A stretch of DNA of 37,623 bases from Ignavibacteria bacterium (lineage in GTDB: Bacteria; Bacteroidota; Ignavibacteria; Kapaibacteriales; UBA2268), in contig JAOAEE010000058.1 of NCBI GenBank assembly GCA_026416955.1, forward strand, positions 1-37,623, written 5' to 3'. The position numbers and the translations under genes were made by a program. Shown here piece by piece: positions 9,381 through 32,725 of this stretch. The notes under the pieces were generated by a model that worked only from the letters and a program-made list of their open reading frames with translations, ran no database searches and was not told the DNA's origin. Position 1 is the first letter of the stretch. The number at the start of each line of letters is the position of its first letter.

Positions 9381-10994
9381 TTACATCATAGAGAAATCGA
9401 TGAAAGGTTCCTTTAAGTCTGCCATTGCGTTAACAACCAATTCTACTAAACCTCCGTAATAGATACCAGACTTTTCTTTTGCCCCGTAATAATCGAGTAT
9501 GTCGCGTATTTGGCCCTTACAATTCGAGCAAGGAGCACATACATATTTGGGAACTTCTGGTCCGGGAGGTTCATCTTTGAAAGCGTCCAAGATTTGTTTG
9601 AATTTCTTTCTACCACTAATATGAATTCTCCAATCCAAGAAGTTATAAGGTGTCATAACAGCAAATCCGCTTCCACCCCCACAGCAATAATTTTCGACTC
9701 CGTGTGGCTCCATTTCTCTAAACTTTGGTGCAAGGAAGCGAAGAACTCTTCTTTGGGGTTGGACAATTCCCATCAATCGCACAATGTTGCAAGGGTCGTG
9801 AAGTGTTACTGGGAAATTGTTTCTTTCGGGGTCAAATTTTATTTTTCCACTGAATACAATGTGTTCAATCAAACTCATTGTATTTATGGTTTTAATTTCA
9901 TTACCAAAAATTCGTTCTGCAATAATTGCCATTGATTTCGACTCGTGACCACATTCCCCCATAATTATTCCTTTTACACCTAATTTCTTAGCGATTTCAA
10001 AGTGCCTCATTGCAATTCTTGAAAATTGGAAATCGTCGTACCAAACACCATAATTAACACCGTCGTAGCCAAGAAGTTCACTTGAATAAGTCCATTTTAT
10101 TCCTGCTGCGTCCAACAAAATTGCAAATGCAGCGGGGTTTTCGGGCCAAGATAGAAATTCACCAGCGTTGTGAAGAACAAGGTAATCTGCTCCTTCAATG
10201 TCCCATTTTGATTCGACTTTTATTCCAAGTCTTTCGCTTAAATCTTCGTCAATAAACGAAACATTGTCTTTTACAACTTCTGGGGTCATTCCAGTTGATG
10301 AACCAACAAGAAGATGTTGTACTGTTCCCTTATCGTGAATTTCCTTTGCAGCAATTCCCATTTCTTGACTAAATAATTTTCTCAGCTCGTGAGTGATTAA
10401 TCCGTTGTCTATTCCTATTGGGCAAGCTTGTGCACATCTTCTGCAAATTGTACATCTATAAGCTAATTCAACAAGTCGCGAAATTAATGTCCAATTCAAA
10501 TCAATATCGCCTACTTGGAATTTTTTTAACAATGGGCTTCCTGGTTTGACATATTTGAAGTAAAGTCTTCGTAATATTTCTGCTCGATATGTCGGACGAT
10601 AAATTTCTTCGTAACCACTGGCTTCGAAAATTGGGCATTCTTCGGAACAAGTTTGACACTTTGCGCAATGTTCCATTGTAAGAACAAGAGGTTGGAGAAA
10701 TGTCCAATTGTTTTCTTTTGAGAACAATTTAATTAGCCCAGAAATAAATTTTTCGACAAGCTCTTGTTCTTCTTCGGGGGTTTTTGGTTTTGGAACACCG
10801 ATAGCAACAACTCCATCAAGAGAATCGTCTACACTCTGGCGAGTTGCTTCACTTAATTTTTTAAATCCCGGTAAGTCTTCCAACTTATCGTATGGAGGGG
10901 GGAGCTCGATTGTATTGGTTGGTGCCACTTCTACAAGTGGCTGTAAATTTGGGTTGCTTATGTCTGTTATTTTAATTTTTCTTTTCTCAGCCAT
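9381..10994 (-). CDS. dsrK: DsrK, HdrD-like catalytic subunit of the DsrMK complex
   Basis: A 537-residue cytoplasmic iron-sulfur protein. It works with DsrM to reduce the DsrC trisulfide made by sulfite reductase, or the reverse. Two 4Fe-4S motifs are visible (CAKCQTCSEECP and CTICRRCAQACP). They are followed by the CCG-type site of heterodisulfide reductase HdrD: HDPC, then ENYCCGGGSGF, then CAPCSNC, which should hold the non-cubane catalytic cluster. I choose the ATG at 10994 because AAGGAG precedes it and the first 12 residues of the longer frame are not family-like. It overlaps the end of dsrM by 8 nt, so the two are translationally coupled. No dsrJOP follow. Confidence 0.95.
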   Translation of the reverse strand: MAEKRKIKITDISNPNLQPLVEVAPTNTIELPPPYDKLEDLPGFKKLSEATRQSVDDSLDGVVAIGVPKPKTPEEEQELVEKFISGLIKLFSKENNWTFLQPLVLTMEHCAKCQTCSEECPIFEASGYEEIYRPTYRAEILRRLYFKYVKPGSPLLKKFQVGDIDLNWTLISRLVELAYRCTICRRCAQACPIGIDNGLITHELRKLFSQEMGIAAKEIHDKGTVQHLLVGSSTGMTPEVVKDNVSFIDEDLSERLGIKVESKWDIEGADYLVLHNAGEFLSWPENPAAFAILLDAAGIKWTYSSELLGYDGVNYGVWYDDFQFSRIAMRHFEIAKKLGVKGIIMGECGHESKSMAIIAERIFGNEIKTINTMSLIEHIVFSGKIKFDPERNNFPVTLHDPCNIVRLMGIVQPQRRVLRFLAPKFREMEPHGVENYCCGGGSGFAVMTPYNFLDWRIHISGRKKFKQILDAFKDEPPGPEVPKYVCAPCSNCKGQIRDILDYYGAKEKSGIYYGGLVELVVNAMADLKEPFIDFSMM

Positions 10995-11916
10995 TTTTTT
11001 TCTCCTTTGTTGGTAAAGGTGATGATGCAATTATTAACCATGTTTTGGTTCCATCTGCACCAATATGAGGTGCTGACCATTGGACTGGAAAATTAAGCTG
11101 TTCCATTAGTTTTTTTCTGAATTTGCTTCCGGGTAAGTTTGGTTCATCATCCCAACGCACTTTGTGGTATGTAAAGTATTTCATAAAGAAATGTGTCATA
11201 TGGGTGAATGGTAAATAAAAAAGAAAGAATGATAAAAGATAGAAATGTATATATCCTACAATTGGCAAAGATGGAATTTGAGAAAAAGAGAAAACACCTA
11301 AGTAAAAACCAAATATCTCTTGAATTGTATTTTCAGAACTCAGCAACCAAATAAAGGAAGTAACATAAAGTGCACCAATCAACAAAATATTGAAATAATG
11401 ACTTGCATTAGAATAAAGTTTTAAATTGCTATCGAATATTCTTTTTAGAAATAAGACAATAGCACCAATAATTCCAAAAATACTTGATATCCAAAGTAAG
11501 ACATTTAGAAATTTAATTATTGAATGATTAGAGAAACCTTCAATTGTAGGGGTTAGTCCAAAAATTAAACTCAGCAGAGTTAAAATAGTAAATACAACAT
11601 AGAGATACAAAGCGTAATGAAATGGTGCAGAACCGAACCAAAGCGAGCGATTATGTTCCCAAACCCCTTTTAGAAACACTATTTCTTGGAACATTGTCCA
11701 AACTTCTCCAAGTAGGTTCTTCTGCAAGGGCTTTGTCCACCATTCAAATTCTTCGAGATAAGAACCACCGTAATGTGCTTTGCCCTTTTCGTGGGCAACT
11801 GGATATAATTCCCAGCGAAGGTGAACAGGAGCAGTTGCAATTTTAATAGCTTTTGCAAAAACGATTACTAAGAAAATGATTAACCCCAAATAGAAAGCAA
11901 GATGAATTAGTTCCAT
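10987..11916 (-). CDS. dsrM: DsrM, membrane cytochrome b subunit of the DsrMK complex
   Basis: A 309-residue integral membrane protein of the NarI-like type. It should oxidise menaquinol and pass electrons through b hemes to DsrK. About five or six hydrophobic segments are visible, starting with IHLAFYLGLIIFLVIVF and ending with the FYLLSFFLFYLPFTHMTHFFMKYF region, whose histidines are candidate heme ligands. I use the ATG at 11916, since the longer frame opens with TTG and adds a polar leader. It follows dsrC by about 130 nt, with a hairpin in the gap, and overlaps dsrK. Confidence 0.92.
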   Translation of the reverse strand: MELIHLAFYLGLIIFLVIVFAKAIKIATAPVHLRWELYPVAHEKGKAHYGGSYLEEFEWWTKPLQKNLLGEVWTMFQEIVFLKGVWEHNRSLWFGSAPFHYALYLYVVFTILTLLSLIFGLTPTIEGFSNHSIIKFLNVLLWISSIFGIIGAIVLFLKRIFDSNLKLYSNASHYFNILLIGALYVTSFIWLLSSENTIQEIFGFYLGVFSFSQIPSLPIVGYIHFYLLSFFLFYLPFTHMTHFFMKYFTYHKVRWDDEPNLPGSKFRKKLMEQLNFPVQWSAPHIGADGTKTWLIIASSPLPTKEKKNG

Positions 11917-12006
11917 ATTTTTCTCTATTTTAAACCAAAACTGATTTTCAAAGGTTTTACCTACAAAAATCAATTTTGGATTTAGGAGAAAAGAATTAAT
12001 AACTTA

Positions 12007-14205: not shown

Positions 14206-14643
14206 TTAGTATCCACCATACGGATACATTCCTTGCTTAATTTTGTTCATTTCTTCCAACAAATTGTCGTGTTTGGTCTCATCATATAATAGATAATCTA
14301 AAAGATAACGAGCAATAGGGGATTTTACATCTTCGAGGGCTTCTTTTGCCAGTGCTATTGTTTTCTTTTCAACTTCGTCGTGCTCTTCGACCAAAGACCA
14401 GAAAGCAGCCAATTCTTCTGGGTTCATTGTTATTGGTTGTTTTTCAAAATGGTCGATAATTAATTGTTGTACCCTTCGGTGCATTACTGAGTCTTGTCGT
14501 ATGATTTCCATTACAAGATGTACCAAAGGGTTGTCTGTTTTCTTAATTATTTCCGTAGTATTTTTGATAGAAGCGTCCTCAATCTTTTGCCACCTTTTCA
14601 AGAGGTCGACTAATTTTTCGATAGTTTCTTTTTGTGTTGCCAT
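14206..14643 (-). CDS. Ferritin-like four-helix protein in the dsr block
   Basis: A 145-residue, almost entirely helical protein that looks like a ferritin or rubrerythrin-type four-helix bundle. Possible di-iron ligands are E22 in helix 1, E46/D51/H55 in helix 2 (RQDSVMHRR), E86, E87 or E90 in helix 3 (VEEHDEVEKK) and E122/H125 in helix 4 (DETKH). The first ExxH is altered, since the position expected for Glu is Ser52. There are no cysteines, so there is no rubredoxin domain. AAAGGAG precedes the ATG. It lies between dsrN and dsrL with gaps of 46 and 38 nt, so it is surely co-expressed. It could protect the block's iron-sulfur enzymes from peroxide or handle iron; its function is not known. 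Confidence 0.75.
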   Translation of the reverse strand: MATQKETIEKLVDLLKRWQKIEDASIKNTTEIIKKTDNPLVHLVMEIIRQDSVMHRRVQQLIIDHFEKQPITMNPEELAAFWSLVEEHDEVEKKTIALAKEALEDVKSPIARYLLDYLLYDETKHDNLLEEMNKIKQGMYPYGGY

Positions 14644-16144: not shown

Positions 16145-16399
16145 TTAGTCGTTTGCTGCTCCTTCTTTGTGTGGTATTTCGAGGTAGCTGCCGCCAAAAT
16201 ATGTATAAACTAAACGCCCAGAATTCACTAATTCTTTTATTGCTTCTTTGCACAAATTTTTATCGCAACGGTCTTCTCCAAATAATTCGATTGCAGCTTT
16301 TTGCAAATCCATAGCCTTCCACTTCTTCATACCCATTGTATCCTTAACCATTTTGTACATTGCTTCGGCAACTTCCTCGATTGTTACTTTTTCTGCCAT
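16145..16399 (-). CDS. dsrD: DsrD, activator of dissimilatory sulfite reductase
   Basis: An 84-residue winged-helix protein of the DsrD family (about 78 residues in Desulfovibrio). Known work shows DsrD stimulates sulfite reduction by DsrAB, and it is found mainly in organisms that run Dsr in the reductive direction. Helical N-terminal half (VTIEEVAEAMYKMV, then MKKWKAMDLQKAAIELFG), a recognition-helix-like CKEAIKELVNSGRLVYTYFGGSYLEIP and a short polar tail. The ATG has AGGAGG 6 nt upstream. It sits 8 nt after dsrB, as in typical dsrABD operons. Confidence 0.95.
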   Translation of the reverse strand: MAEKVTIEEVAEAMYKMVKDTMGMKKWKAMDLQKAAIELFGEDRCDKNLCKEAIKELVNSGRLVYTYFGGSYLEIPHKEGAAND

Positions 16400-18760: not shown

Positions 18761-19987
18761 TTAGTTTGAAACTGAATAATTTATTATTCTATTCTCTCTT
18801 CCATACATTTTTAAAAATACTAATCCAAGAAATCTATAAACCATATGGGCAAACTTGGAATAGGGCATATACCAGAGCAAGAAGTAAACTAATATCAAAT
18901 GGATAAAATATGTTGGGAACCCTAATACTGCTGTTTGCATTAATCGAAAGAGGACACACAGCAAACCAGTAAATGCTACACCCCAAATAATCCAAAGAAA
19001 CAACATATCGCTGTAACTTGATTTGCCATATTGTGGTTCTGTTCTGTATCGTCTAAGTATGCACATTAAACTTCCAAATACGATTAAAAAACCAGCAAAA
19101 ATTCCAAAAAGTTTAACGATAAGTCCAAAAAATTCACGAACTTCGTTGGGATTATTAATATCAAAGCCAGCAAGCAACCCAATAGGCAAATTCATATCTT
19201 CTGGTAGGATTTGCCCGAAAATGCCCACAACATTGACGACAACCACGGCTGTTGCTATCATTGCTCCAAGAAAACCATAAAAGATAAAAAGATGACCTAA
19301 GTAACGAGTGCTATTTGTTGTGCATTGTTTGAACTTTTTGTGTAGAGCAAGGTCGATTAAAACCTTTACGACAGCGCTTCCAAAAGAGCATTCTTTTGGT
19401 TTATTTAATTTGCATTTTAAGTTGTGCCAATATCTTTTATACCCCCAGAAAGTAAAAGCAAAGATTAAAATATTTCCAGAGATGAAAAGATACTCAATAG
19501 GTCCGTGGGCTACGAATTCTTTGTATCGAAAAGGACCTTCCTTAATTGGGAACAGATTGCCTAAGTCCCAGTTTTGTGTAATTAACACAAGAATTGAGAT
19601 TAGGATAGCTGGTAATAGGAAAAGAAGGGGTAAATACTTTGGGGAACCAAGAGCAGTACCCATAAACTTAGGAACGGCAAAATGCTTGTAAACGTAATCA
19701 CGAATAGCCGACATTAAATCGGCTGGTCTTGCTCCACGGGGACATTTTTCGCTACATTCCATACAACCGTGGCAAAGCCAAATATCTGGGTCGGAAAGAA
19801 GTTCATTTTTCAAACCCCAACTTGCCCAAATCATCTCTTTGCGTGGGAAGGCACTTTCGTTAGGTGACAAATCGCAAACAACAGAGCAAGTTGCACATTG
19901 GAAGCATTTTTTTAAGGTCTCGCCACCACGCTTTTTTAGTTCTTTGATAAACTCTACATCGTTTTTAATTTCGATGACGTCACGCAT
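18761..19987 (-). CDS. qmoC: QmoC, iron-sulfur and cytochrome b membrane subunit of quinone-interacting oxidoreductase
   Basis: A 408-residue fusion of an HdrC-like domain and a NarI-like membrane domain. Two cluster motifs: C28-x2-C31-x2-C34-x3-C38 and C72-x2-C75-x2-C78-x3-C82. The C-terminal two thirds has about six hydrophobic segments, with histidines in LGHLFIFYGF, FIHLILVYF and SKFAHMVYRF as candidate b-heme ligands. In sulfate reducers QmoC moves electrons from menaquinol via QmoAB to AprAB. Here QmoA and QmoB are not next to it. Instead a YkgJ-type gene lies 10 nt upstream. A DsrM-like or other HdrC-cytochrome b protein is the alternative, but the domain order fits QmoC best. Confidence 0.85.
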   Translation of the reverse strand: MRDVIEIKNDVEFIKELKKRGGETLKKCFQCATCSVVCDLSPNESAFPRKEMIWASWGLKNELLSDPDIWLCHGCMECSEKCPRGARPADLMSAIRDYVYKHFAVPKFMGTALGSPKYLPLLFLLPAILISILVLITQNWDLGNLFPIKEGPFRYKEFVAHGPIEYLFISGNILIFAFTFWGYKRYWHNLKCKLNKPKECSFGSAVVKVLIDLALHKKFKQCTTNSTRYLGHLFIFYGFLGAMIATAVVVVNVVGIFGQILPEDMNLPIGLLAGFDINNPNEVREFFGLIVKLFGIFAGFLIVFGSLMCILRRYRTEPQYGKSSYSDMLFLWIIWGVAFTGLLCVLFRLMQTAVLGFPTYFIHLILVYFLLWYMPYSKFAHMVYRFLGLVFLKMYGRENRIINYSVSN

Positions 19988-19997
19988 CTCGAAGCCT

Positions 19998-20816
19998 TTA
20001 TTGTTTTACTTTATTTTTATCCAAATCAAGGTAGTCTTTTCGCAGTTCGAAAACTTTTTCGCCAAAAATGCTGAAGCGCAACCACTCAAAACCGAATTTG
20101 ATTAATTCAGCATCGTTGTAGCGTATTTTCTCTTTTCTATCTTCATCAACATCGAATCTTTTGAAAAAAGTACTTTCGAAAAGAAATTTTCTGAATTTGT
20201 CGATGTCGTAGCAGACCATATAAAACATTTCTAATTTTACTGGTTCAATTGCTCGGGCAGTTACAAAAAATTTGTGCAGAGAAATTTCTTTGAATAGTTC
20301 CCCTAATTCTTGGTATTCATCTAAACCTTGGTCGGTAAACCATTCATCTATTGTCCATTCTCGGTTTTGGTCAAATCCCTTACAAACATCTTCTTTGATT
20401 AAAAAGTAGAATTCTTCGCCATTATTTAATTTTTCTGCTTCATTAGGAGAGGCAATTCCTATTGGGAACATACGACAACTCCAAGGTCTGTCGTTGTAAA
20501 CTAAGCAGCCATCATCGCCCAAGAAAGGACAGTTCAATGTTTTCTCATCCATTCGAAGCATTACTATGGGATGGCGTAAATTTTGTGCTATTGGTAAAAT
20601 AGTGTATTTGCTAAGGAATTCTGTGGAATCGATTCCCAAAGCCTTGCGAAGTCTTGCTATATCATATGGTGTTAGGAAAATATTCACATTGTTACAGCAT
20701 TTGTTGAAACATTCTATACCGGGCTTGCACTCAAATCGAAATTTGGAGTTTTTATCTATTTTAGGATAATTAGAAATTAATTCCTCACTTATTATCCTTG
20801 CATTTTTTTCAAACAT
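19998..20816 (-). CDS. YkgJ-type cysteine-cluster protein
   Basis: A 272-residue protein of the YkgJ (CxxCxxCC, UPF0153-like) family, thought to bind zinc or an iron-sulfur cluster. The N-terminal ligand group is C30, C36, C40 and C41. The second is C96, C104 and C114, in CPFLGDDGC and RPWSCRMFP. The C-terminal 140 residues are less conserved and may form a helical domain (DLDEYQ-like acid-rich stretch near 165, then a Lys-rich tail). It is encoded between the zinc-ribbon gene (5-nt gap) and qmoC (10-nt gap), so it is tightly co-translated with a respiratory subunit. A role in cluster assembly or electron transfer for the Apr/Qmo step is inferred from position only. Confidence 0.85.
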   Translation of the reverse strand: MFEKNARIISEELISNYPKIDKNSKFRFECKPGIECFNKCCNNVNIFLTPYDIARLRKALGIDSTEFLSKYTILPIAQNLRHPIVMLRMDEKTLNCPFLGDDGCLVYNDRPWSCRMFPIGIASPNEAEKLNNGEEFYFLIKEDVCKGFDQNREWTIDEWFTDQGLDEYQELGELFKEISLHKFFVTARAIEPVKLEMFYMVCYDIDKFRKFLFESTFFKRFDVDEDRKEKIRYNDAELIKFGFEWLRFSIFGEKVFELRKDYLDLDKNKVKQ

Positions 20817-20821
20817 AGGAA

Positions 20822-21094
20822 TTACCTTTCAATTTTCTCCAAATATGCATTTTTAATATCATTTTCTTTGGTGACTGGATAAGGACCTTGGTAACCATTG
20901 AATGGATTGAACATAAAGCGATAGGAAGCGTGGACGTGATAGTTATTCCACATCCAATCCCAACCTCGGCGAAAGTATCCACAATCGTCGTTTATGCAAA
21001 TAAAAAGATATTCTACTCCCCAATCGGAATCTACTGGTAAGTAAACTTTTTTTATTTCACTACCACAATGTTTGCAAAAATATTTTTGTTCCAT
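20822..21094 (-). CDS. Small zinc-ribbon-like protein in the apr-qmo-dsr block
   Basis: A 90-residue protein with a probable zinc ribbon: C7 and C10 (FCKHCG) paired with C33 and C38 (ICINDDCGYF). An aromatic segment follows (GWDWMWNNYHVHASYRFMFNP). From memory it resembles small conserved proteins of deltaproteobacterial sulfate reducers with a CFNDxC and SYRFxxNP pattern, but I cannot confirm this. GGAGGG is 5 nt before the ATG. The upstream gap to aprA (143 nt) has two hairpins, and the downstream YkgJ-type gene follows by 5 nt, so it opens the second segment of the block. Its function is unknown; a cluster or metal-handling partner is possible. Confidence 0.8.
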   Translation of the reverse strand: MEQKYFCKHCGSEIKKVYLPVDSDWGVEYLFICINDDCGYFRRGWDWMWNNYHVHASYRFMFNPFNGYQGPYPVTKENDIKNAYLEKIER

Positions 21095-21237: not shown

Positions 21238-23109
21238 TTAAAATATTCGGATAATATCGCGTGTAAACACATTCCAAGTGTCGGTTTTTCGGTCGTAGGT
21301 CATATTTACAAATTTTTCCCAATTTGGGTCTAAGCTTGGTTTGTCTGCACGGAAGTAATAGCCGGGCCATCGAGTTTCTTCGCGGAATAGTATTGCTCGG
21401 ATGTGTGCTTCTGCTTGATACATTCTATGGATATTTTCCCAGCAGCGCATTAGTTCGTGCAAATCGCAAGCTGCGAGTTTTTCGCTATCTTCTTTTAGCA
21501 TTTGCATCAACTGCAAGCCTTTTTCGAGCAATGGTTTACTTGTCTTAAATTGCGAAGTTACTCCACCAGCATATTCATCCATAAGTTTTTGTAATCGGAA
21601 CATAAACATTTTGGGTCGAATGTAATTTGGGTTGATATCTGGGTCGGTTGTTTCTTTGTAATGTGCTTCGTATACTTCTAATGGTTTGTAAATCTTTTTC
21701 TTGAGTTCTTCAATTTGATTTTCGTCGTAATTTAATTGCGGATTTTCTTTTACAATGTATTCAATTGCACCTTTTGCTGCAATACGACCTTCGGCGTGGG
21801 AACCAGAAGAAAACTTGTGGCTAGAAGCACCAGAAGCATCTCCAGCACAGAACAATCCTTTTACTGTGGACATATTTGGATAACCCCAGAAATATTCTGG
21901 TGGGGCAAGGTCTTTCGGTCCACTGACCCAAGCGCCAGAAGCACCAGAGTGTGAACCAATAAAGTATGGTTCGGCAGCGGCAATTTCCGATGGTGCTTGT
22001 TCTGGGAATGTATTGGTGGCAGCCCAGAGTATTGCTTGGGAAATTGTCATATCGAGGAAGTCTTCCCAGGCTTCTTCTTCCAACTCTTTCATCTTTTTCT
22101 TATATGCTTTCGGGTCGTCTTTGTATTGGTCTGCAATTTTTTGAATTGCTTCTTCGGTCCTCATATAGATTGGTCCTTTCCCTTCCATTACATCGAGCAT
22201 ACCAAGCCAGTTTCGCAAGTTGGCTGGAATTGGTTTTACTTTCCCATAGGGCAACCATTTCTCTAATTCGTCGGTTCGTTCGACCATATAATCCCCGCCG
22301 AAAGCATTTGTTGCACGGGATTTGAATAAAAGGAACCAAGCACCAACTGGTCCGTAAGCATCTTTGAAGCGAACTGGAATAAATCGAACTTCTTGGCAAG
22401 TCATTTCGGCACCAGCCATTATTGTGAAGTAGGCACTCGAGCCAGAGTTCCAAGGTGGATACCAAGCACGGCCAAGACCTTCACCAGTTGAACGAGGACG
22501 GAACACGTGAACTGCACCCCCCATTGCCACTAATGTCGCTTTAGCTTTAAAGACATAGAATTTATTGTCTCTTACACTAAATCCCACAGCACCAGCGCAA
22601 CGGTCTCCGTCCATTAATGGTTCAACTATGAATATTCTCTCGTAAATATTTTCGATACCAAGTGCATTTTTTGCAGCCTCGGCAACAACAACTTTGTATG
22701 ATTCCCCGTTAATCATTAATTGCCATCGACCTTCGTGGACATAATTGCCTTCTTCATCTTTCCAAATTGGTAGACCCCACTTTTCAAATAGATGTACGGT
22801 CGAGTCGACGTGGCGAGCAATGTTTGCGACCAAATCTTCCCTAGTAATTCCCATTAAGTCGTTTCTTACGTAATCAACGTAGTCTTTGACAGTATTTTTT
22901 CCAGAGTTAAGGTCTACATAAAGATTGATAGCAGAAAGGCCCATTGCAACAGCACCACTTCTGTCGAGAGCGGCTTTGTCTACAAGGGTAACTTTCAAAC
23001 CGTGTTTCTTTGCCCAATATGCTGCTTCGACTGCTGCACCGCAAGCAGCCATACCACCACCAACAATCAGTAGATCGGTGTTGACTTCTACAGTTTCAAA
23101 TGGTCCCAT
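21238..23109 (-). CDS. aprA: AprA, alpha subunit of adenylylsulfate reductase
   Basis: A 623-residue FAD enzyme that interconverts APS and sulfite plus AMP, in complex with AprB. The FAD site GGGMAACGAAVEA (about 17-29) opens the protein. The conserved RPRSTGEGLGRAWYPPWNSGSSAY region, the SHSGASGAW motif and GLFCAGDASGASSHKFSSGSHAEG match AprA closely. It is a little shorter than the usual 650-660 residues. AAAGGAG precedes the ATG. It lies 29 nt after aprB, and a strong hairpin follows its stop. Clade I versus II, and so direction of use, cannot be read by eye. Confidence 0.98.
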   Translation of the reverse strand: MGPFETVEVNTDLLIVGGGMAACGAAVEAAYWAKKHGLKVTLVDKAALDRSGAVAMGLSAINLYVDLNSGKNTVKDYVDYVRNDLMGITREDLVANIARHVDSTVHLFEKWGLPIWKDEEGNYVHEGRWQLMINGESYKVVVAEAAKNALGIENIYERIFIVEPLMDGDRCAGAVGFSVRDNKFYVFKAKATLVAMGGAVHVFRPRSTGEGLGRAWYPPWNSGSSAYFTIMAGAEMTCQEVRFIPVRFKDAYGPVGAWFLLFKSRATNAFGGDYMVERTDELEKWLPYGKVKPIPANLRNWLGMLDVMEGKGPIYMRTEEAIQKIADQYKDDPKAYKKKMKELEEEAWEDFLDMTISQAILWAATNTFPEQAPSEIAAAEPYFIGSHSGASGAWVSGPKDLAPPEYFWGYPNMSTVKGLFCAGDASGASSHKFSSGSHAEGRIAAKGAIEYIVKENPQLNYDENQIEELKKKIYKPLEVYEAHYKETTDPDINPNYIRPKMFMFRLQKLMDEYAGGVTSQFKTSKPLLEKGLQLMQMLKEDSEKLAACDLHELMRCWENIHRMYQAEAHIRAILFREETRWPGYYFRADKPSLDPNWEKFVNMTYDRKTDTWNVFTRDIIRIF

Positions 23110-23138: not shown

Positions 23139-23582
23139 TTACTTATTAAGTGTGAACAATGAATCTAACTTAAGCGAGCCGGGTTCAGTAAAGAGCAGTG
23201 GGCTAGAAATATCGTCAGTTGCAGTTTCCCAACCTCCATCTGGAACTGCTGAACCCTCGGGAGTAGTTCGAATTGGGAATTTGAATCTTTTCAGTTCGCC
23301 ATTACGGAATTTTACAGTCCACATAATCGAATCGGAACTTCTCATAGGAGTAACTTGTGCTCCTAATGGAACAAAGTCAGCGTATCCGCGTACTTCGATT
23401 GCTTGGTTTGGGCAAATTTTAACGCAGTTATAGCATTCCCAGCACAATTCTGGCTCGCGGTTGTAAGCTTTCATCGTGTCTTTATTTAGGACCATTAGGT
23501 CGTTTGGGCAAATGTACTGGCAAGCAGTCTTGTCCAGTGCTTTGCACCCATCGCATTTGTCTACTATTACGTAGCTTGGCAT
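23139..23582 (-). CDS. aprB: AprB, iron-sulfur beta subunit of adenylylsulfate reductase
   Basis: A 147-residue ferredoxin-like partner of AprA that carries electrons to its FAD through two 4Fe-4S clusters. The cysteines are C10, C13, C21 and C25 in the first motif and C47, C50, C53 and C57 in CWECYNCVKIC. The C-terminal 80 residues form the tail that wraps AprA in known structures (FVPLGAQVTPMRSSDSIMWTV). AAAGGAG lies before the ATG. It is placed between sat and aprA, with 45- and 29-nt gaps, which is the common order in sulfate reducers. Confidence 0.98.
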   Translation of the reverse strand: MPSYVIVDKCDGCKALDKTACQYICPNDLMVLNKDTMKAYNREPELCWECYNCVKICPNQAIEVRGYADFVPLGAQVTPMRSSDSIMWTVKFRNGELKRFKFPIRTTPEGSAVPDGGWETATDDISSPLLFTEPGSLKLDSLFTLNK

Positions 23583-23627: not shown

Positions 23628-24848
23628 TTATTCTCCAGTTGCTGCTTTGTGCAGCTTGATTTCTACTTTTTCTTGTAATCCAGAATAATATTCTCGTAAT
23701 ATCGCAAGAACTTCTGGTCGCGAGAATTCCTTTGGTACTTCTAAGCCTTCGGATAGAGCTTTTCGTAGCATTGTACCGCTTAGTAGGAGACGGTCTTCTT
23801 TCGAATGGGGGCAAGTTTTCATCGAAGCCATTCCTTCGCATTTGTAGCAATAGAAAGTCCAATCAATTTTTAATGGTTTGCAAAGTAGGGCCCCTTCCCA
23901 AAGTTCGTCGAAAATTTCTTGTGCTTCGAATGGACCATAGTAATTTCCAACCCCAGCGTGGTCGCGTCCAATTATCATATGAGTGCAACCATAATTTTGT
24001 CGGAATAAAGCGTGGAGCAACGCTTCTCGTGGTCCTGCATACCGCATATCAAGTGGGTATCCACCTTGGAGAACAGTATCCTTCACGAAATAATGTTGAA
24101 CAAGAACATCAATGCATCGAACACGGACGTCGGCTGGAATATCGCCGGGTTTTAGTTTGCCAACTAATTGGTGAATATATAAGCCATCGGAAACCTCGAG
24201 TGCAATTTTAGCAAGGTATTCGTGCGAACGATGCATAGGGTTTCGGAGTTGTAAAGCAGCAATTGTTTTCCACCCGCGTTCTGCAAATATTTTTCTTGAT
24301 TCTTCTGGTCTTTGATAAATTCCTTTAAATTGTTCGGGGAATGGTCCTTCGCTAAGAACCTTAACTGGACCAGCAAGATTGATTTCTGCCTGGTCCATAA
24401 CCATCTTCACACCGGGATGTTCGAGGTCAGTAGTTTTGAAGACGTTCTTGCATTCGAATTCCTTATCGATTTTGTACTTTTCGACAACTCGCATTGTAGC
24501 CATAATCTCGTTATACTCGTCGGAGTAAAGGGCTACCTCGTCGCCAATTTTGATTTTGTCCGCGGTTTCCTTGTCGGTGGAGACAGTGATGGGAATTGGC
24601 CAAAACAAGCCATTTTTGCTTGGCATTTTCATCTCTTCGCATACGCTTTTCCAATCGTCATAGCCCATAAAACCGTCGAGTGGGGTAAATCCACCAATAC
24701 CCATCATAATCAAGTCCCCAGCTTCACGACTGGTGATTGGGACTTTAAGAAGCTTTTCGGCTTTCTTTTTCTCCTCGGCAAGTTCTTCTCCTTCCAATAG
24801 TAATTTGATTAATTCGGGGCTTCCGTGGGGGCTAATTAGCTTTGTCAT
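23628..24848 (-). CDS. sat: Dissimilatory ATP sulfurylase
   Basis: A 406-residue homo-oligomeric sulfate adenylyltransferase of the dissimilatory type. It makes APS from ATP and sulfate, or ATP and sulfate from APS and pyrophosphate when run backward. Key motifs: [11 protein letters not shown] (200-210), GRDHAGVG (294-301) and a zinc site C334, C337, C346, H348 typical of the bacterial and archaeal dissimilatory enzymes. I start at the ATG at 24848, which is 7 nt after AAGGAG; a longer frame begins 13 codons earlier without such a site and overlaps the predicted -10 box. It is the first gene of the sulfur block. Confidence 0.98.
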
Positions 24849-24886
24849 TTCTTTCTCCTTAATAAAACTAAACAAATTCAATTGCA

Positions 24887-24915
24887 ATATTAGATTTGTA
24901 ATTAATTATCAACAA
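24887..24915 (-). promoter_or_regulatory. Predicted sigma70-like promoter of the sat-apr-dsr block
   Basis: On the minus strand TTGTTG (24910-24915) is followed 17 bp later by TAATAT (24887-24892), a near-consensus pair at ideal spacing. Transcription would begin near 24880, giving a leader of about 30 nt to the sat ATG at 24848. The lineage may use a different consensus, so this is a pattern match only. Confidence 0.45.
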
Positions 24916-28855: not shown

Positions 28856-29449
28856 TTAAAATTTAACATCGGTTTTGTATATTGCAAATTTCAGAATCTT
28901 CAAATACTGGTTCCGAGAAATTTCGATTGCACCTAACATTTTCGTATGGGGATTAATAAATTGGCTATCGAGAAGGACAAATCCTTTTTCCTTCAGTCGC
29001 TCAACGAGATAATAAAAAGCAACTTTCGAAGCATTACTTACTTTCGAAAACATAGATTCGCCAAAAAAAGCCGCCCCAATAGCAACTCCGTATAATCCAC
29101 CAACAAGTTCACCATCTTTAAATGTTTCGACAGAATGAGCGTAGCCTAAATGGTGAAGATTTATGTAGGAATTAATGATTACATCATTTATCCAGGAATC
29201 AGGTCTATTTGCACAACCAAGAATAACCCTTTCGAAACAAGTATCAAATTTTACTTCGAATAATTTTTTCTTTAGGATTTGTTTTGTTGAATGAGAAGGT
29301 TTTATGTGGTGCAAAGGGAAAATAGCCCGAGGGTTTGGTGAATACCATTCAATTTCACCAGTTTCAGAGTTTGCCATAGGGAAAAACCCCTCTGAATATG
29401 CTTCGAGTAATAGTTGCGGGCTAATTATTTTATCATTTTGGCTTGTCAT
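28856..29449 (-). CDS. aat: Leucyl/phenylalanyl-tRNA-protein transferase
   Basis: A 197-residue enzyme that adds Leu or Phe from tRNA to proteins with basic N-termini, marking them for ClpAP degradation under the N-end rule. Strong motifs: YSEGFFPMANSETGEIEWYSPNPRAIFPL, WINDVIINSYINLHHLGYAHSVE, GLYGVAIGAAFFGESMFS, and LLDSQFINPHTKMLGAIEI. Length fits the compact family form. It begins 2 nt after queA ends, indicating one operon. Confidence 0.96.
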   Translation of the reverse strand: MTSQNDKIISPQLLLEAYSEGFFPMANSETGEIEWYSPNPRAIFPLHHIKPSHSTKQILKKKLFEVKFDTCFERVILGCANRPDSWINDVIINSYINLHHLGYAHSVETFKDGELVGGLYGVAIGAAFFGESMFSKVSNASKVAFYYLVERLKEKGFVLLDSQFINPHTKMLGAIEISRNQYLKILKFAIYKTDVKF

Positions 29450-29451
29450 CT

Positions 29452-30693
29452 TTATTTGTTGATGTTAAACAGTAATGACGCATCCCCATAACTTAGAAAT
29501 CGGTAATTTTTTTCGAGTGCCTCCTTGTAAATTCGTTTCCACTCGTTTCCAACGAAAGAGTATATAAGTAAAAGTAAAGTACTTTTTGGTTGATGAAAAT
29601 TCGTAATTATTGCCTCGAAAAAATTGATTTTATAATCGGGTGTAATATAAAGTCTTGTTTTGCCCTCAATTTTTTCAAGTTTGTTCAAATGCATTTTTTC
29701 CAACAATATTTCTAATGATTGAATAGGTGTTAAACTCGCGATGGTTTCTTTCCAAATGTATTGAGAAATATCAAAATTACCAGCAATCACGTTTTCTTTG
29801 TTGTTGTATATTTTTTGTGCTAACCAGAAAATGGATTCTAAAGTTCTTACGCTTGTAGTTCCAACTGCAACAAATATTTGGTGTTCCTTGCGATTGCTAA
29901 GGAATTGGTATATTTTGTTTAAAGTGGTTAGTGAAACGGAGAATTTTTCTTCGTGCATTTTGTGCGAAAAAATGTTGGAGCTCTGAATAGGTTTAAATGT
30001 TCCTAAGCCTATGTGTAATGTGATATCGGCAAAATCAATATTATTTTTGGTTAATTCATTGATTACATTGTTTGAGAAGTGTAGTCCAGCTGTGTGCGAG
30101 GCAACTGAACCTAACTGGTCTCCATAAATTGTTTGGTATCGTTCTTTATCGAGTTCTTCGTCGTCTCGGTGGATATAAGGGGGCAAAGGAATTTTTCCTA
30201 AGTATTCTAAAATTTCTGAAAATTGTAAATTTTCGTTTGCCCATTCAAAATCAACTATGTAATGGTCCTCGTTTTTTTCGTTGATTGTACAAATCATATC
30301 GAAATTTCTTTCACTATAGTTTGGCAATACCAGTTGCAAGCCAGTCTTTAAATTTTTACCCCGCATCAAGACTTTCCACGAGCACTTTTCTCTTGAAGAT
30401 AAGGCAAGTTGCGGGTCGGAGGAAGGGTAAGTTGGTTCTAAAAGTAAAATTTCGACTTTTCCCCCACTTTGTTTTTGGAGAAAAAATCTTGCTGGAATAA
30501 CTTTAGAACTATTTCTTAAAAGTAAACTTCCTTTTGGCAATAAGTTTGGCAATTCAAAAAATTTATGATGTTCAATTATTTTACTTGGATAAAAGACTAA
30601 TAAATTACTTTGGTCTCGGTCTGGCAAAGGATACTGGGCTATCCGTTCTTGGGGTAAATAGTAATCGAAATCATCAAGTGAAAAATTGTTCAT
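29452..30693 (-). CDS. queA: S-adenosylmethionine:tRNA ribosyltransferase-isomerase
   Basis: A 413-residue QueA, which builds epoxyqueuosine from preQ1 in the wobble base of tRNAs using the ribosyl part of SAM. Typical start motif DFDYYLPQERIAQYPLPDRDQSNLLV, then RNSSKVIPARF, the central GDQLGSVASHTAGLHFS and ITLHIGLGTFKPI, and the C-terminal NFHQPKSTLLLLIYSFVG and YGDASLLF. It is longer than the common 340-360 residues; the extra length lies between the middle and the end (an insertion of roughly 50 residues, rich in Ile, Asn and Lys). It starts divergently from a glycosyltransferase. Confidence 0.96.
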   Translation of the reverse strand: MNNFSLDDFDYYLPQERIAQYPLPDRDQSNLLVFYPSKIIEHHKFFELPNLLPKGSLLLRNSSKVIPARFFLQKQSGGKVEILLLEPTYPSSDPQLALSSREKCSWKVLMRGKNLKTGLQLVLPNYSERNFDMICTINEKNEDHYIVDFEWANENLQFSEILEYLGKIPLPPYIHRDDEELDKERYQTIYGDQLGSVASHTAGLHFSNNVINELTKNNIDFADITLHIGLGTFKPIQSSNIFSHKMHEEKFSVSLTTLNKIYQFLSNRKEHQIFVAVGTTSVRTLESIFWLAQKIYNNKENVIAGNFDISQYIWKETIASLTPIQSLEILLEKMHLNKLEKIEGKTRLYITPDYKINFFEAIITNFHQPKSTLLLLIYSFVGNEWKRIYKEALEKNYRFLSYGDASLLFNINK

Positions 30694-30786
30694 ATGTAGT
30701 CTTGGGTTTTTAAATATGTATAACGAAAAAGGATAGAAAAAAATGGATTAATTTTGTAATTTTTATTTACATTTTATTAATTGTTA

Positions 30787-31503
30787 ATGAAAAACGAGCT
30801 GGTTTCGCTGGTTATTCCAGTTTATAACGAAGAAGATAGAATTGTATCAACTTTGGAAAAGGTCTGGAATTATTTAGACACACACAATTATCATTTTGAA
30901 ATTGTTGTTGTTGATGATGGTTCTAAAGACAATACACTCGAAAAGTTGCAACAATTTAAAAATCAAGTTAAAGTAATTAGTTACTATCCTAATCGAGGCA
31001 AAGGTGCTGCTGTTCGAACTGGTATGCTTTCTTCGAAAGGGAAGTTTCGTATTTTTTCGGATGCTGACCTTTCTACTCCAATATACGAGATTGAAAAACT
31101 CTTGGAAAAACTAAAAGGGGGCGCAGATATATGCATAGGTAGTCGAGCTTTGGACCCATTGCTGATTAAGGAGCATCAACCATTCTATCGCGAATTTATG
31201 GGAAAAATGTTCAACAAATTTGTACAATTGATTGTGTTTAAAGGGATTGAAGATACCCAATGTGGATTCAAAGGCTTTACCGATAAAGCTGCTGAATTAG
31301 TTTTTTCGAAATCAAAAATTGATGGGTTTAGTTTCGATGTGGAGATACTTTTTTTGGCAAAAAAAGCTGGACTTCGGATAGAACAAGTTGCAGTTGAGTG
31401 GTACAATGATAAAAGAACCAAAGTACATCCAATAAAGGATTCAGTAAATATGTTCATTGAATTGTTGAAAATAAAAAAACATCATTCTAATACTATTTTC
31501 TAA
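30787..31503 (+). CDS. Family 2 glycosyltransferase of the polyprenyl-phosphate sugar synthase type
   Basis: A 238-residue GT2 enzyme without clear membrane helices, resembling dolichyl-phosphate glucosyltransferase or mannosyltransferase (ALG5/DPM1-like). Visible motifs: SLVIPVYNEEDRIV, VVDDGSKDNT, RGKGAAVRTGM, FSDADLSTP, GSRA and EDTQCGFKGF, ending in the VEWYNDKRTKV segment. It would load a sugar from a nucleotide donor onto a lipid phosphate at the inner membrane. The frame also begins with a TTG two codons earlier; the ATG at 30787 is likelier. It sits 1 nt upstream of the MFS gene, so the two are co-translated. Confidence 0.9.
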   Translation: MKNELVSLVIPVYNEEDRIVSTLEKVWNYLDTHNYHFEIVVVDDGSKDNTLEKLQQFKNQVKVISYYPNRGKGAAVRTGMLSSKGKFRIFSDADLSTPIYEIEKLLEKLKGGADICIGSRALDPLLIKEHQPFYREFMGKMFNKFVQLIVFKGIEDTQCGFKGFTDKAAELVFSKSKIDGFSFDVEILFLAKKAGLRIEQVAVEWYNDKRTKVHPIKDSVNMFIELLKIKKHHSNTIF

Positions 31504-31504
31504 A

Positions 31505-32725
31505 GTGAAAGTAAGCACATTAATAGTAAAATATAAATTTAGCGAAGTCTGGGAGCGAAATCTTTTATTTTTAGCCCTATCGCAATTTATCGCAATGATG
31601 GGGATGAATGCTTGTGTCCCTTTTTTGCCATTATATGTAAGGGAACTTGGGGTCGTTGGGGACGCAGCCCAAAGGTTTTGGAGTGGTTTGGTTTTTGCTG
31701 GACCATACTTTCTTTCAATAATTTTTGTTCCGATTTGGGGAAATCTTGGGGATAGGTATGGTAAAAAGTTAATGATTATTCGGGCAATTCTTGGTTTAGC
31801 TTTGGCAATGTTTCTGATGGGATTTGCTCGTAATGTTTTAGAATTATTTTTGCTTAGAGTTTTCCAAGGAGCAACAAGCGGTTTCATTGCTGCTAATCTT
31901 GGTTTTACAGTTGCAAATACTCCCCCAGAGAAAAAAGGGTTTTCGGTTGGTTTCCTACAAAGTTCGCAATCGGCTGGTGCTATTGCCGGACCTCTATTAG
32001 GTGGTTTTGTATCGGATTTGATAGGTTTCCGCGAAGTCTTTTTCGTTGTTGCTGCATTGTGTTTAATAAGTGCAGTTTTGATATTCTTTTTTGTCAAAGA
32101 AGTAAATAAAGGTAACGAAAATAAAAGTGAAAGCATTTTGAAAATTTTTAAAACCGTTCTAATTGAAAGAAAATATAGATATCCATTAATTATGATTTTA
32201 TTAAGCCAAATTGGGATTTTTTATTCATTCCCAATTTTGCCATATTTTTTAGAGGGTCTTAATACTCCAAAAGAAATTCTAAGTACAGTAACTGGGATTG
32301 TTGTAGGTTTGACAAGTATCTTTAATATTATTTTTGCACCGATTTGGGGAAAGTGGTCGGACAAATATCCAATATTTAGTTTAATGAGGAAATCTACAAT
32401 AATACTTTGCATTGCTCTATTTCTTCACTTTTTTGCAACGTATTATGTTTTTGTTTTCCCACTTAGAGTATTAGTTGGAATTTCTATTGCTGGAACAATT
32501 CCTCTTCTTTATTCTTATTTAGGAAAGATAGCTGAACCCGAAAGAGTAGGGAGTATTATGGGTTTTGCTTCTTCTGCTACCTTATTTGGTTCTTTGGTAG
32601 CCTTTCTTGGTTCCGCACTTATTTCCCCAATCATTGAGTTGAAATGGATGTTTGTTATGAGTGGATTAATACTGCTTTTGGTTTTCTTTCTTACTAATAA
32701 GATTGAATATAATTCTGGGAGATAA
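31505..32725 (+). CDS. Major facilitator superfamily transporter (efflux-like)
   Basis: A 406-residue integral membrane protein with about 12 hydrophobic helices in two halves. After helix 2 comes the family loop WGNLGDRYGKKLMI, followed by RVFQGATSGFIAANLGF and the efflux-type motif C region SAGAIAGPLLGGFVSDL. The second half repeats the loop as WGKWSDKYP. Drug/H+ antiporters have this design, but the substrate is unknown. It begins with GTG 1 nt after the glycosyltransferase stop, and its 3' end overlaps hrcA on the other strand by 32 nt. Confidence 0.9.
   Translation: MKVSTLIVKYKFSEVWERNLLFLALSQFIAMMGMNACVPFLPLYVRELGVVGDAAQRFWSGLVFAGPYFLSIIFVPIWGNLGDRYGKKLMIIRAILGLALAMFLMGFARNVLELFLLRVFQGATSGFIAANLGFTVANTPPEKKGFSVGFLQSSQSAGAIAGPLLGGFVSDLIGFREVFFVVAALCLISAVLIFFFVKEVNKGNENKSESILKIFKTVLIERKYRYPLIMILLSQIGIFYSFPILPYFLEGLNTPKEILSTVTGIVVGLTSIFNIIFAPIWGKWSDKYPIFSLMRKSTIILCIALFLHFFATYYVFVFPLRVLVGISIAGTIPLLYSYLGKIAEPERVGSIMGFASSATLFGSLVAFLGSALISPIIELKWMFVMSGLILLLVFFLTNKIEYNSGR

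Follow-up and report, generated by a model that had tools for sequence, protein, structure and literature searches.

A cysteine-rich protein of the YkgJ type co-occurs with aprA, the gene for the alpha subunit of APS reductase, and its gene takes several positions within sat-apr-qmo operons or next to them. The association extends to unrelated bacteria and to some archaea. In the class of the Ignavibacteria bacterium analysed here it forms a conserved trio, zinc ribbon-YkgJ-qmoC. A link of YkgJ to AprBA/Qmo as an accessory is, in our judgement, very probable.

Results

Genes of the window

The window, the whole stretch of 37,623 nucleotides that was analysed (contig JAOAEE010000058.1 of assembly GCA_026416955.1), carries on its minus strand sat, aprB, aprA, a zinc-ribbon gene, YkgJ, qmoC, dsrA, dsrB and more dsr genes (Table 1). 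The curated cut-offs of NCBIfam (for AprA, AprB and QmoC) and the Pfam gathering score of PF03692 (23 bits, for the YkgJ-type protein) were exceeded in all four cases. The original prediction had placed two small Cys-rich proteins between aprA and qmoC, and it was right in content, coordinates and spacing: the YkgJ ORF is flanked by gaps of 5 nt on the zinc-ribbon side and 10 nt on the qmoC side. The names of sat and of most dsr genes rest on inspection and on the gene order of Thiel et al. (PMC6338057). The true start of sat may lie further inside the ORF as listed.

Table 1. Positions of the genes discussed, in the window and on contig C76 of the same genome
Stretch	Feature	Coordinates	Strand	Basis
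Window	sat (ATP sulfurylase)	23628..24887	-	419-aa ORF, TTG start; inspection and order in PMC6338057
Window	aprB (APS reductase beta subunit)	23139..23582	-	TIGR02060 205.6 bits, cut-off 135.65
Window	aprA (APS reductase alpha subunit)	21238..23109	-	TIGR02061 904.7 bits, cut-off 641.75
Window	zinc-ribbon protein, 90 aa	20822..21094	-	CX2C + CX4C (C7, C10, C33, C38)
Window	YkgJ-type CxxCxxCC protein, 272 aa	19998..20816	-	PF03692 39.8 bits, cut-off 23; CX5CX3CC + 4 more conserved Cys
Window	qmoC (Qmo membrane subunit)	18761..19987	-	NF038018 396.9 bits, cut-off 300
Window	84-aa ORF	16145..16399	-	dsrD position in PMC6338057
Window	145-aa ORF	14206..14643	-	between dsrN and dsrL
Window	DsrM-/DsrK-like ORFs	9381..11973	-	DsrK-like 298.6 bits (cut-off 400), DsrM-like 36.6 bits (cut-off 300)
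C76	first HdrA-like frame (QmoA)	29046..30305	+	FAD and Fer4 domains
C76	second HdrA-like frame (QmoB)	30325..32505	+	FAD, Fer4 and terminal FlpD (PF02662, 2.3e-41)

The dsr block closes on the DsrM- and DsrK-like ORFs, both under their NCBIfam cut-offs and with dsrJOP not adjoining; they are the dsrM-2 and dsrK-2 of Thiel et al. (PMC6338057). The 145-aa ORF matched nothing in Pfam above cut-off or in NCBIfam at E ≤ 1, and is the 'hyp' within dsrD-dsrN-hyp-dsrL-dsrC in the same source. The 84-aa ORF was missed by the PF08679 genome search at E ≤ 1e-5 and may be a diverged DsrD. As a marker of reducers and oxidisers, DsrD (PF08679) was uninformative, since it gave matches in 8 of 80 genomes, and the window's genome was not among them.

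A qmoAB pair on another contig

The original prediction had described the locus as QmoC without QmoA and QmoB. This holds for the interval between aprA and qmoC, where neither gene occurs, but not for the genome, where a normal pair lies on another contig, a possibility that the prediction had itself allowed. In the window's genome (2.49 Mb, 78 contigs, 98.3% complete) the HdrA2 profile matched two adjacent frames on contig C76. Both encode HdrA-like 4Fe-4S flavoproteins, the second ending in an FlpD/MvhD domain (Table 1). The pair was called QmoA and QmoB from domains and adjacency, and is normal by its domains, as expected; the HdrA2 cut-off (1100 bits) was not reached, as is also expected for a related family.

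The pair on C76 corrects the impression that this lineage is without QmoAB. No route replacing QmoAB is therefore required, and the proposal that the Cys-rich proteins provide one can be set aside. The gene arrangement of this lineage was already known, since Thiel et al. (PMC6338057) printed sat-aprBA-hyp-hyp-qmoC, with qmoAB in another place, in 2019 for Candidatus Thermonerobacter thiotrophicus.

The trio in the window's own class

The zinc ribbon-YkgJ-qmoC order, whose recurrence had been proposed as a check, was found again in other genomes. In the window's class (197 genomes), aprA (over cut-off) and YkgJ (profile A3) occurred in the identical nine, and in all nine (including G000, which is the window's genome, G179 and G105) zinc ribbon, YkgJ and qmoC or a qmoC-like gene stood next to aprA. 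The trio was also present in locus L035 and in L037, which is bin MS-B_bin-24 of Thiel et al. (PMC6338057). Seven of the nine class carriers belong to a sister family, f13. Four of its seven stretches fetched (L074, L078, L079 and L080) hold the whole block qmoA-qmoB-sat-aprB-aprA-zinc ribbon-YkgJ-qmoC; in the other three (L075, L076 and L077) the contig stops within aprBA or next to it. On NF038018 the f13 QmoC-like proteins scored 227-245 bits, below the cut-off of 300. One genome of the window's genus (G186) had neither aprA nor YkgJ. The trio is more than a chance arrangement; the nine carriers represent two genera, so that the perfect match of aprA and YkgJ stands for few independent events.

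YkgJ and aprA in Nitrospirota

A contig scan with a narrow two-row alignment gave relatives in an Archaeoglobaceae and a Nitrospirae MAG, the latter with a like zinc ribbon adjoining YkgJ, and aprA was present in all four genomes behind L035, L037, L038 and L039. The survey with profile A3 of the YkgJ subfamily covered, besides the window's class, 148 genomes sampled from Nitrospirota, the phylum to which L039 belongs, and 59 Archaeoglobi genomes.

The YkgJ profile scores of Nitrospirota were two-peaked, with 226-397 bits in 57 of the 148 genomes and a next best score of 72.6 bits. We found aprA over cut-off in 53 of the 57 YkgJ carriers and in 8 of the 91 other genomes (Fisher p = 1.4e-26, kinship ignored; the genomes are related, so the co-occurrence p-values overstate the evidence). 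The four carriers without full aprA were G233 and G276, which have aprA fragments, G273, whose contig ends within qmoB and has YkgJ close to qmoC, and G268, with YkgJ on a contig of 4.5 kb; its neighbour there is the gene, to the eye like a membrane pyrophosphatase, that precedes YkgJ in L087 and L126. The eight aprA carriers without YkgJ were G203, G212, G213, G222, G239, G246, G259 and G284. A qmoC gene (E ≤ 1e-30) was found in 52 of the 57 YkgJ carriers and in 6 of these 8 genomes, so YkgJ tracks apr and not qmoC as such. In the remaining five YkgJ carriers the genome searches found no qmoC at this threshold, which shows that YkgJ is not dependent on QmoC.

In 24 of the 57 carriers no more than 12 kb separated YkgJ from aprA or qmoC, against an expectation of about one (assuming 2% per genome, relatedness ignored); in the other 33 it was further away or on a separate contig. 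At least five arrangements near apr/qmo genes were seen: sat-aprBA-qmoABC-YkgJ (L084, L089 and L090); sat-aprBA-qmoABC followed by one or two genes and then YkgJ (L086, L087 and L126); YkgJ four kb beyond qmoC (L085); sat-aprBA-YkgJ (L081 and L082); and sat-aprBA-YkgJ-YkgJ-qmoAB (L083). The YkgJ neighbourhoods of L088 and L123 held no apr or qmo gene. A shared function accounts more readily for such varied positions in one operon than a single inherited order does.

Two further observations concern these neighbourhoods. The genomes with sat-aprBA-YkgJ (G206 and G225) have qmoAB nearby and no qmoC at E ≤ 1e-30 genome-wide, and their Qmo may use a different membrane partner. In several Nitrospirota a gene stands between qmoC and YkgJ (L087 5815-7884, L125 11210-13279 and L126 12148-14211) that looks, by eye, like a membrane pyrophosphatase; if so, it would fit the clearing of pyrophosphate after Sat.

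Archaeoglobi and a plasmid record

YkgJ (at least 212 bits) was present in 18 of the 59 Archaeoglobi genomes. There aprA was over cut-off in 14 of the 18 carriers and in 15 of the 41 others (p = 0.0048, kinship ignored), a modest association and weaker than that in Nitrospirota. Among the other four carriers, G386 and G388 have aprA fragments and G355 and G391 are without aprA. Sixteen Archaeoglobi aprA carriers, one of them with a fragment, are without YkgJ, and together with the eight such Nitrospirota genomes they show that YkgJ is not obligatory.

One archaeal genome, G357, has an operon (L116, 6860-16898) that reads sat, a DUF6955 gene, aprB, aprA, YkgJ, qmoA, qmoB and qmoC. The AprA encoded there shares 77% identity with that of the Nitrospirota genome G332, and the operon could reflect an inter-domain transfer or a mis-binned bacterial contig. 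No apr or qmo gene was near YkgJ in the other six Archaeoglobi neighbourhoods read (L117-L122); one of these unlinked copies stands beside elongation factor and ribosomal protein genes.

A plasmid search returned three records with one good match, a YkgJ relative with 37.5% identity over 93% (L127, NZ_CP061968.1, 5953-6720) in a record that carries the label of a Klebsiella pneumoniae plasmid. Scores of apr, qmo and dsr references on this record stayed at 12 bits or below, and the neighbouring genes did not look enterobacterial by eye. It is probably a mislabelled contig.

The zinc ribbon

The four cysteines of the zinc ribbon (Table 1) were invariant in all five rows of alignment A4. The window's protein scored 20.8 bits on the Ogr/Delta zinc finger PF04606, under the gathering score of 26.3, and two relatives from f13 scored 45.0 and 29.0; the wider family may belong to Ogr/Delta, with the window's member not filed there. 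Ogr/Delta proteins are phage transcription activators. A structure model of the zinc ribbon (mean pLDDT 79.7) had no PDB match at E ≤ 0.001.

Profile A4 found the zinc ribbon in 23 of the 148 Nitrospirota genomes, 22 of which also carry YkgJ (hypergeometric p = 6e-10); the remaining one, G284, has aprA. The two genes adjoin in 2 of the 10 Nitrospirota loci fetched (G200 and G223) and are apart in the other eight. The pairing of zinc ribbon and YkgJ is real, and looser than the link between YkgJ and apr.

Cysteines, models and distances of YkgJ

Eight cysteines (C30, C36, C40, C41, C96, C104, C114 and C145) were invariant in all 63 non-redundant YkgJ homologues fetched, which include part of the Nitrospirota and Archaeoglobi profile matches. 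The first four form CX5CX3CC. FliB, a flagellin lysine methyltransferase with one oxygen-sensitive [4Fe-4S] cluster (PMC8598068), likewise has eight conserved cysteines, and a four-Cys motif near its N-terminus that includes a CC pair. The FliB motif, CX4CX3CC, is of the same PF03692 type and its spacing is off by one; the likeness is one of motifs, not of alignment.

The AlphaFold model of YkgJ (six rows) was weak, with a mean pLDDT of 69 and values below 50 in much of the Cys region. Foldseek gave no PDB match for it at E ≤ 0.001, and the top match among viral models was a phage 'zinc- or iron-chelating domain' protein (E = 0.32). A comparison with PDB sequences also gave no match (best E = 0.52).

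Over up to 20 loci, pairwise YkgJ distances correlated with those of AprA (r = 0.85), AprB (0.84) and QmoC (0.79, two rows partial), and less with those of Sat (0.50) and QmoA (0.48). The AprA-AprB correlation was 0.94; the comparison as a whole holds no housekeeping baseline. G357 and G332 break the pattern, with close AprA and distant YkgJ. These correlations weakly support a link of YkgJ with AprA and QmoC.

Discussion

We read the locus as belonging to what would be a complete sat-apr-qmo system, with the qmoAB pair of this genus at a separate site and electrons presumably still travelling via QmoABC to AprBA. The YkgJ-type protein would be a dedicated accessory of AprBA/Qmo and the zinc ribbon its less widespread companion, perhaps an adaptor. 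CX5CX3CC and the four further invariant cysteines would hold a [4Fe-4S] cluster, as in FliB, and with this cluster YkgJ would act in the maturation, protection or repair of a centre, Fe-S or flavin, in AprBA or one of the Qmo subunits. Maturation or repair is favoured because YkgJ is dispensable in some apr carriers, stands beside both apr and qmo genes, and has a studied relative whose cluster is oxygen-sensitive. As the actual role of YkgJ it is nevertheless a tentative choice, somewhat short of an even chance, and we put the statement as a whole, from the complete system to Fe-S maturation, protection or repair by YkgJ (with the zinc ribbon), at about even.

The original prediction had suggested that the two proteins might be assembly factors or otherwise serve AprBA. 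The recurring trio, the tracking of aprA by YkgJ and the varied operon positions give this genomic support, while the exact role is one that we infer. The same prediction had named two findings that would together count against it, a qmoAB pair elsewhere in the genome with normal HdrA features and no recurrence of the trio; a pair with HdrA-like features does exist, and the trio nonetheless recurs.

A direct interaction of Qmo and Apr is reported for Desulfovibrio, and it speaks against a view of YkgJ as a redox partner, that is, a soluble Fe-S protein between QmoABC and AprBA or one feeding the second donor of a Qmo confurcation. The encoding of a Cys-rich protein between aprA and the qmo genes would suit such a carrier, as would the distances that track AprA and QmoC, and Ramos et al. 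(2012, cited in PMC3949148) proposed a Qmo confurcation whose partner is unsettled. However, the studied PF03692 relative, FliB, is an enzyme and not a carrier (PMC8598068), five of the 57 Nitrospirota YkgJ carriers have no recognisable qmoC, and the eight Nitrospirota aprA carriers without YkgJ, at least six of them with qmoC, indicate that transfer from Qmo to Apr is possible without it. We consider this role unlikely, and similarly doubt its broader form, in which YkgJ would be the Fe-S partner in electron delivery in several sulfate-activating phyla, as a third partner in Qmo confurcation or a mediator between Qmo and Apr.

The shared Pfam type and the eight conserved cysteines would also allow YkgJ to be a FliB-like [4Fe-4S]/SAM-dependent methyltransferase acting on lysines of AprA, AprB or a Qmo subunit. 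SAM binding and methylation would be putative for a likeness that rests on motifs, and to our knowledge the PF03692 members other than FliB have no known activity; we hold this role to be improbable. The two genes might instead have no functional tie to their surroundings: the zinc ribbon could be a regulator, and YkgJ a metal or stress protein of general use that happens to travel with sulfate-respiration operons. Ogr/Delta as the nearest Pfam family of the zinc ribbon would fit a regulator, and the Archaeoglobi copies read, apart from that of G357, are unlinked, one of them beside translation genes. Hitch-hiking would, however, favour a single order, and the several orders seen argue against it; the copies outside the operons are still in aprA-bearing genomes. 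Of a chance association of this kind we are distinctly sceptical, and the preferred reading stays that of a dedicated accessory.

The path of menaquinol electrons to APS reductase and the coupling partner of Qmo are unsettled. A conserved Cys-rich YkgJ that tracks aprA across phyla is a candidate for the missing part, be it a maturation factor, a modifier or a redox partner, and an anonymous 'hypothetical' of sat-apr-qmo operons gains a testable role. A YkgJ subfamily that follows APS reductase appears unreported: among the matches listed in a search of open-licence literature, none linked YkgJ, UPF0153 or CxxCxxCC proteins to QmoC, APS reductase or sulfate reduction.

Known systems resemble the locus in different respects. 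In Desulfovibrio vulgaris an uncharacterised, promoter-distal hypothetical gene lies beside qmoABC (Zane et al., 2010); we liken it to YkgJ by position alone and claim no relation. The cluster of Thiel et al. (PMC6338057) agrees with the window in gene order, in the two conserved hypotheticals between aprA and qmoC, in qmoAB lying elsewhere and in the dsr genes past qmoC. It differs in that the excerpted text of that paper gives the two genes only as 'conserved hypothetical', without a family or a spread beyond the lineage. FliB, which resembles YkgJ in its cysteines, has flagellin as its substrate (PMC8598068), whereas the YkgJ genes lie with those of APS reductase.
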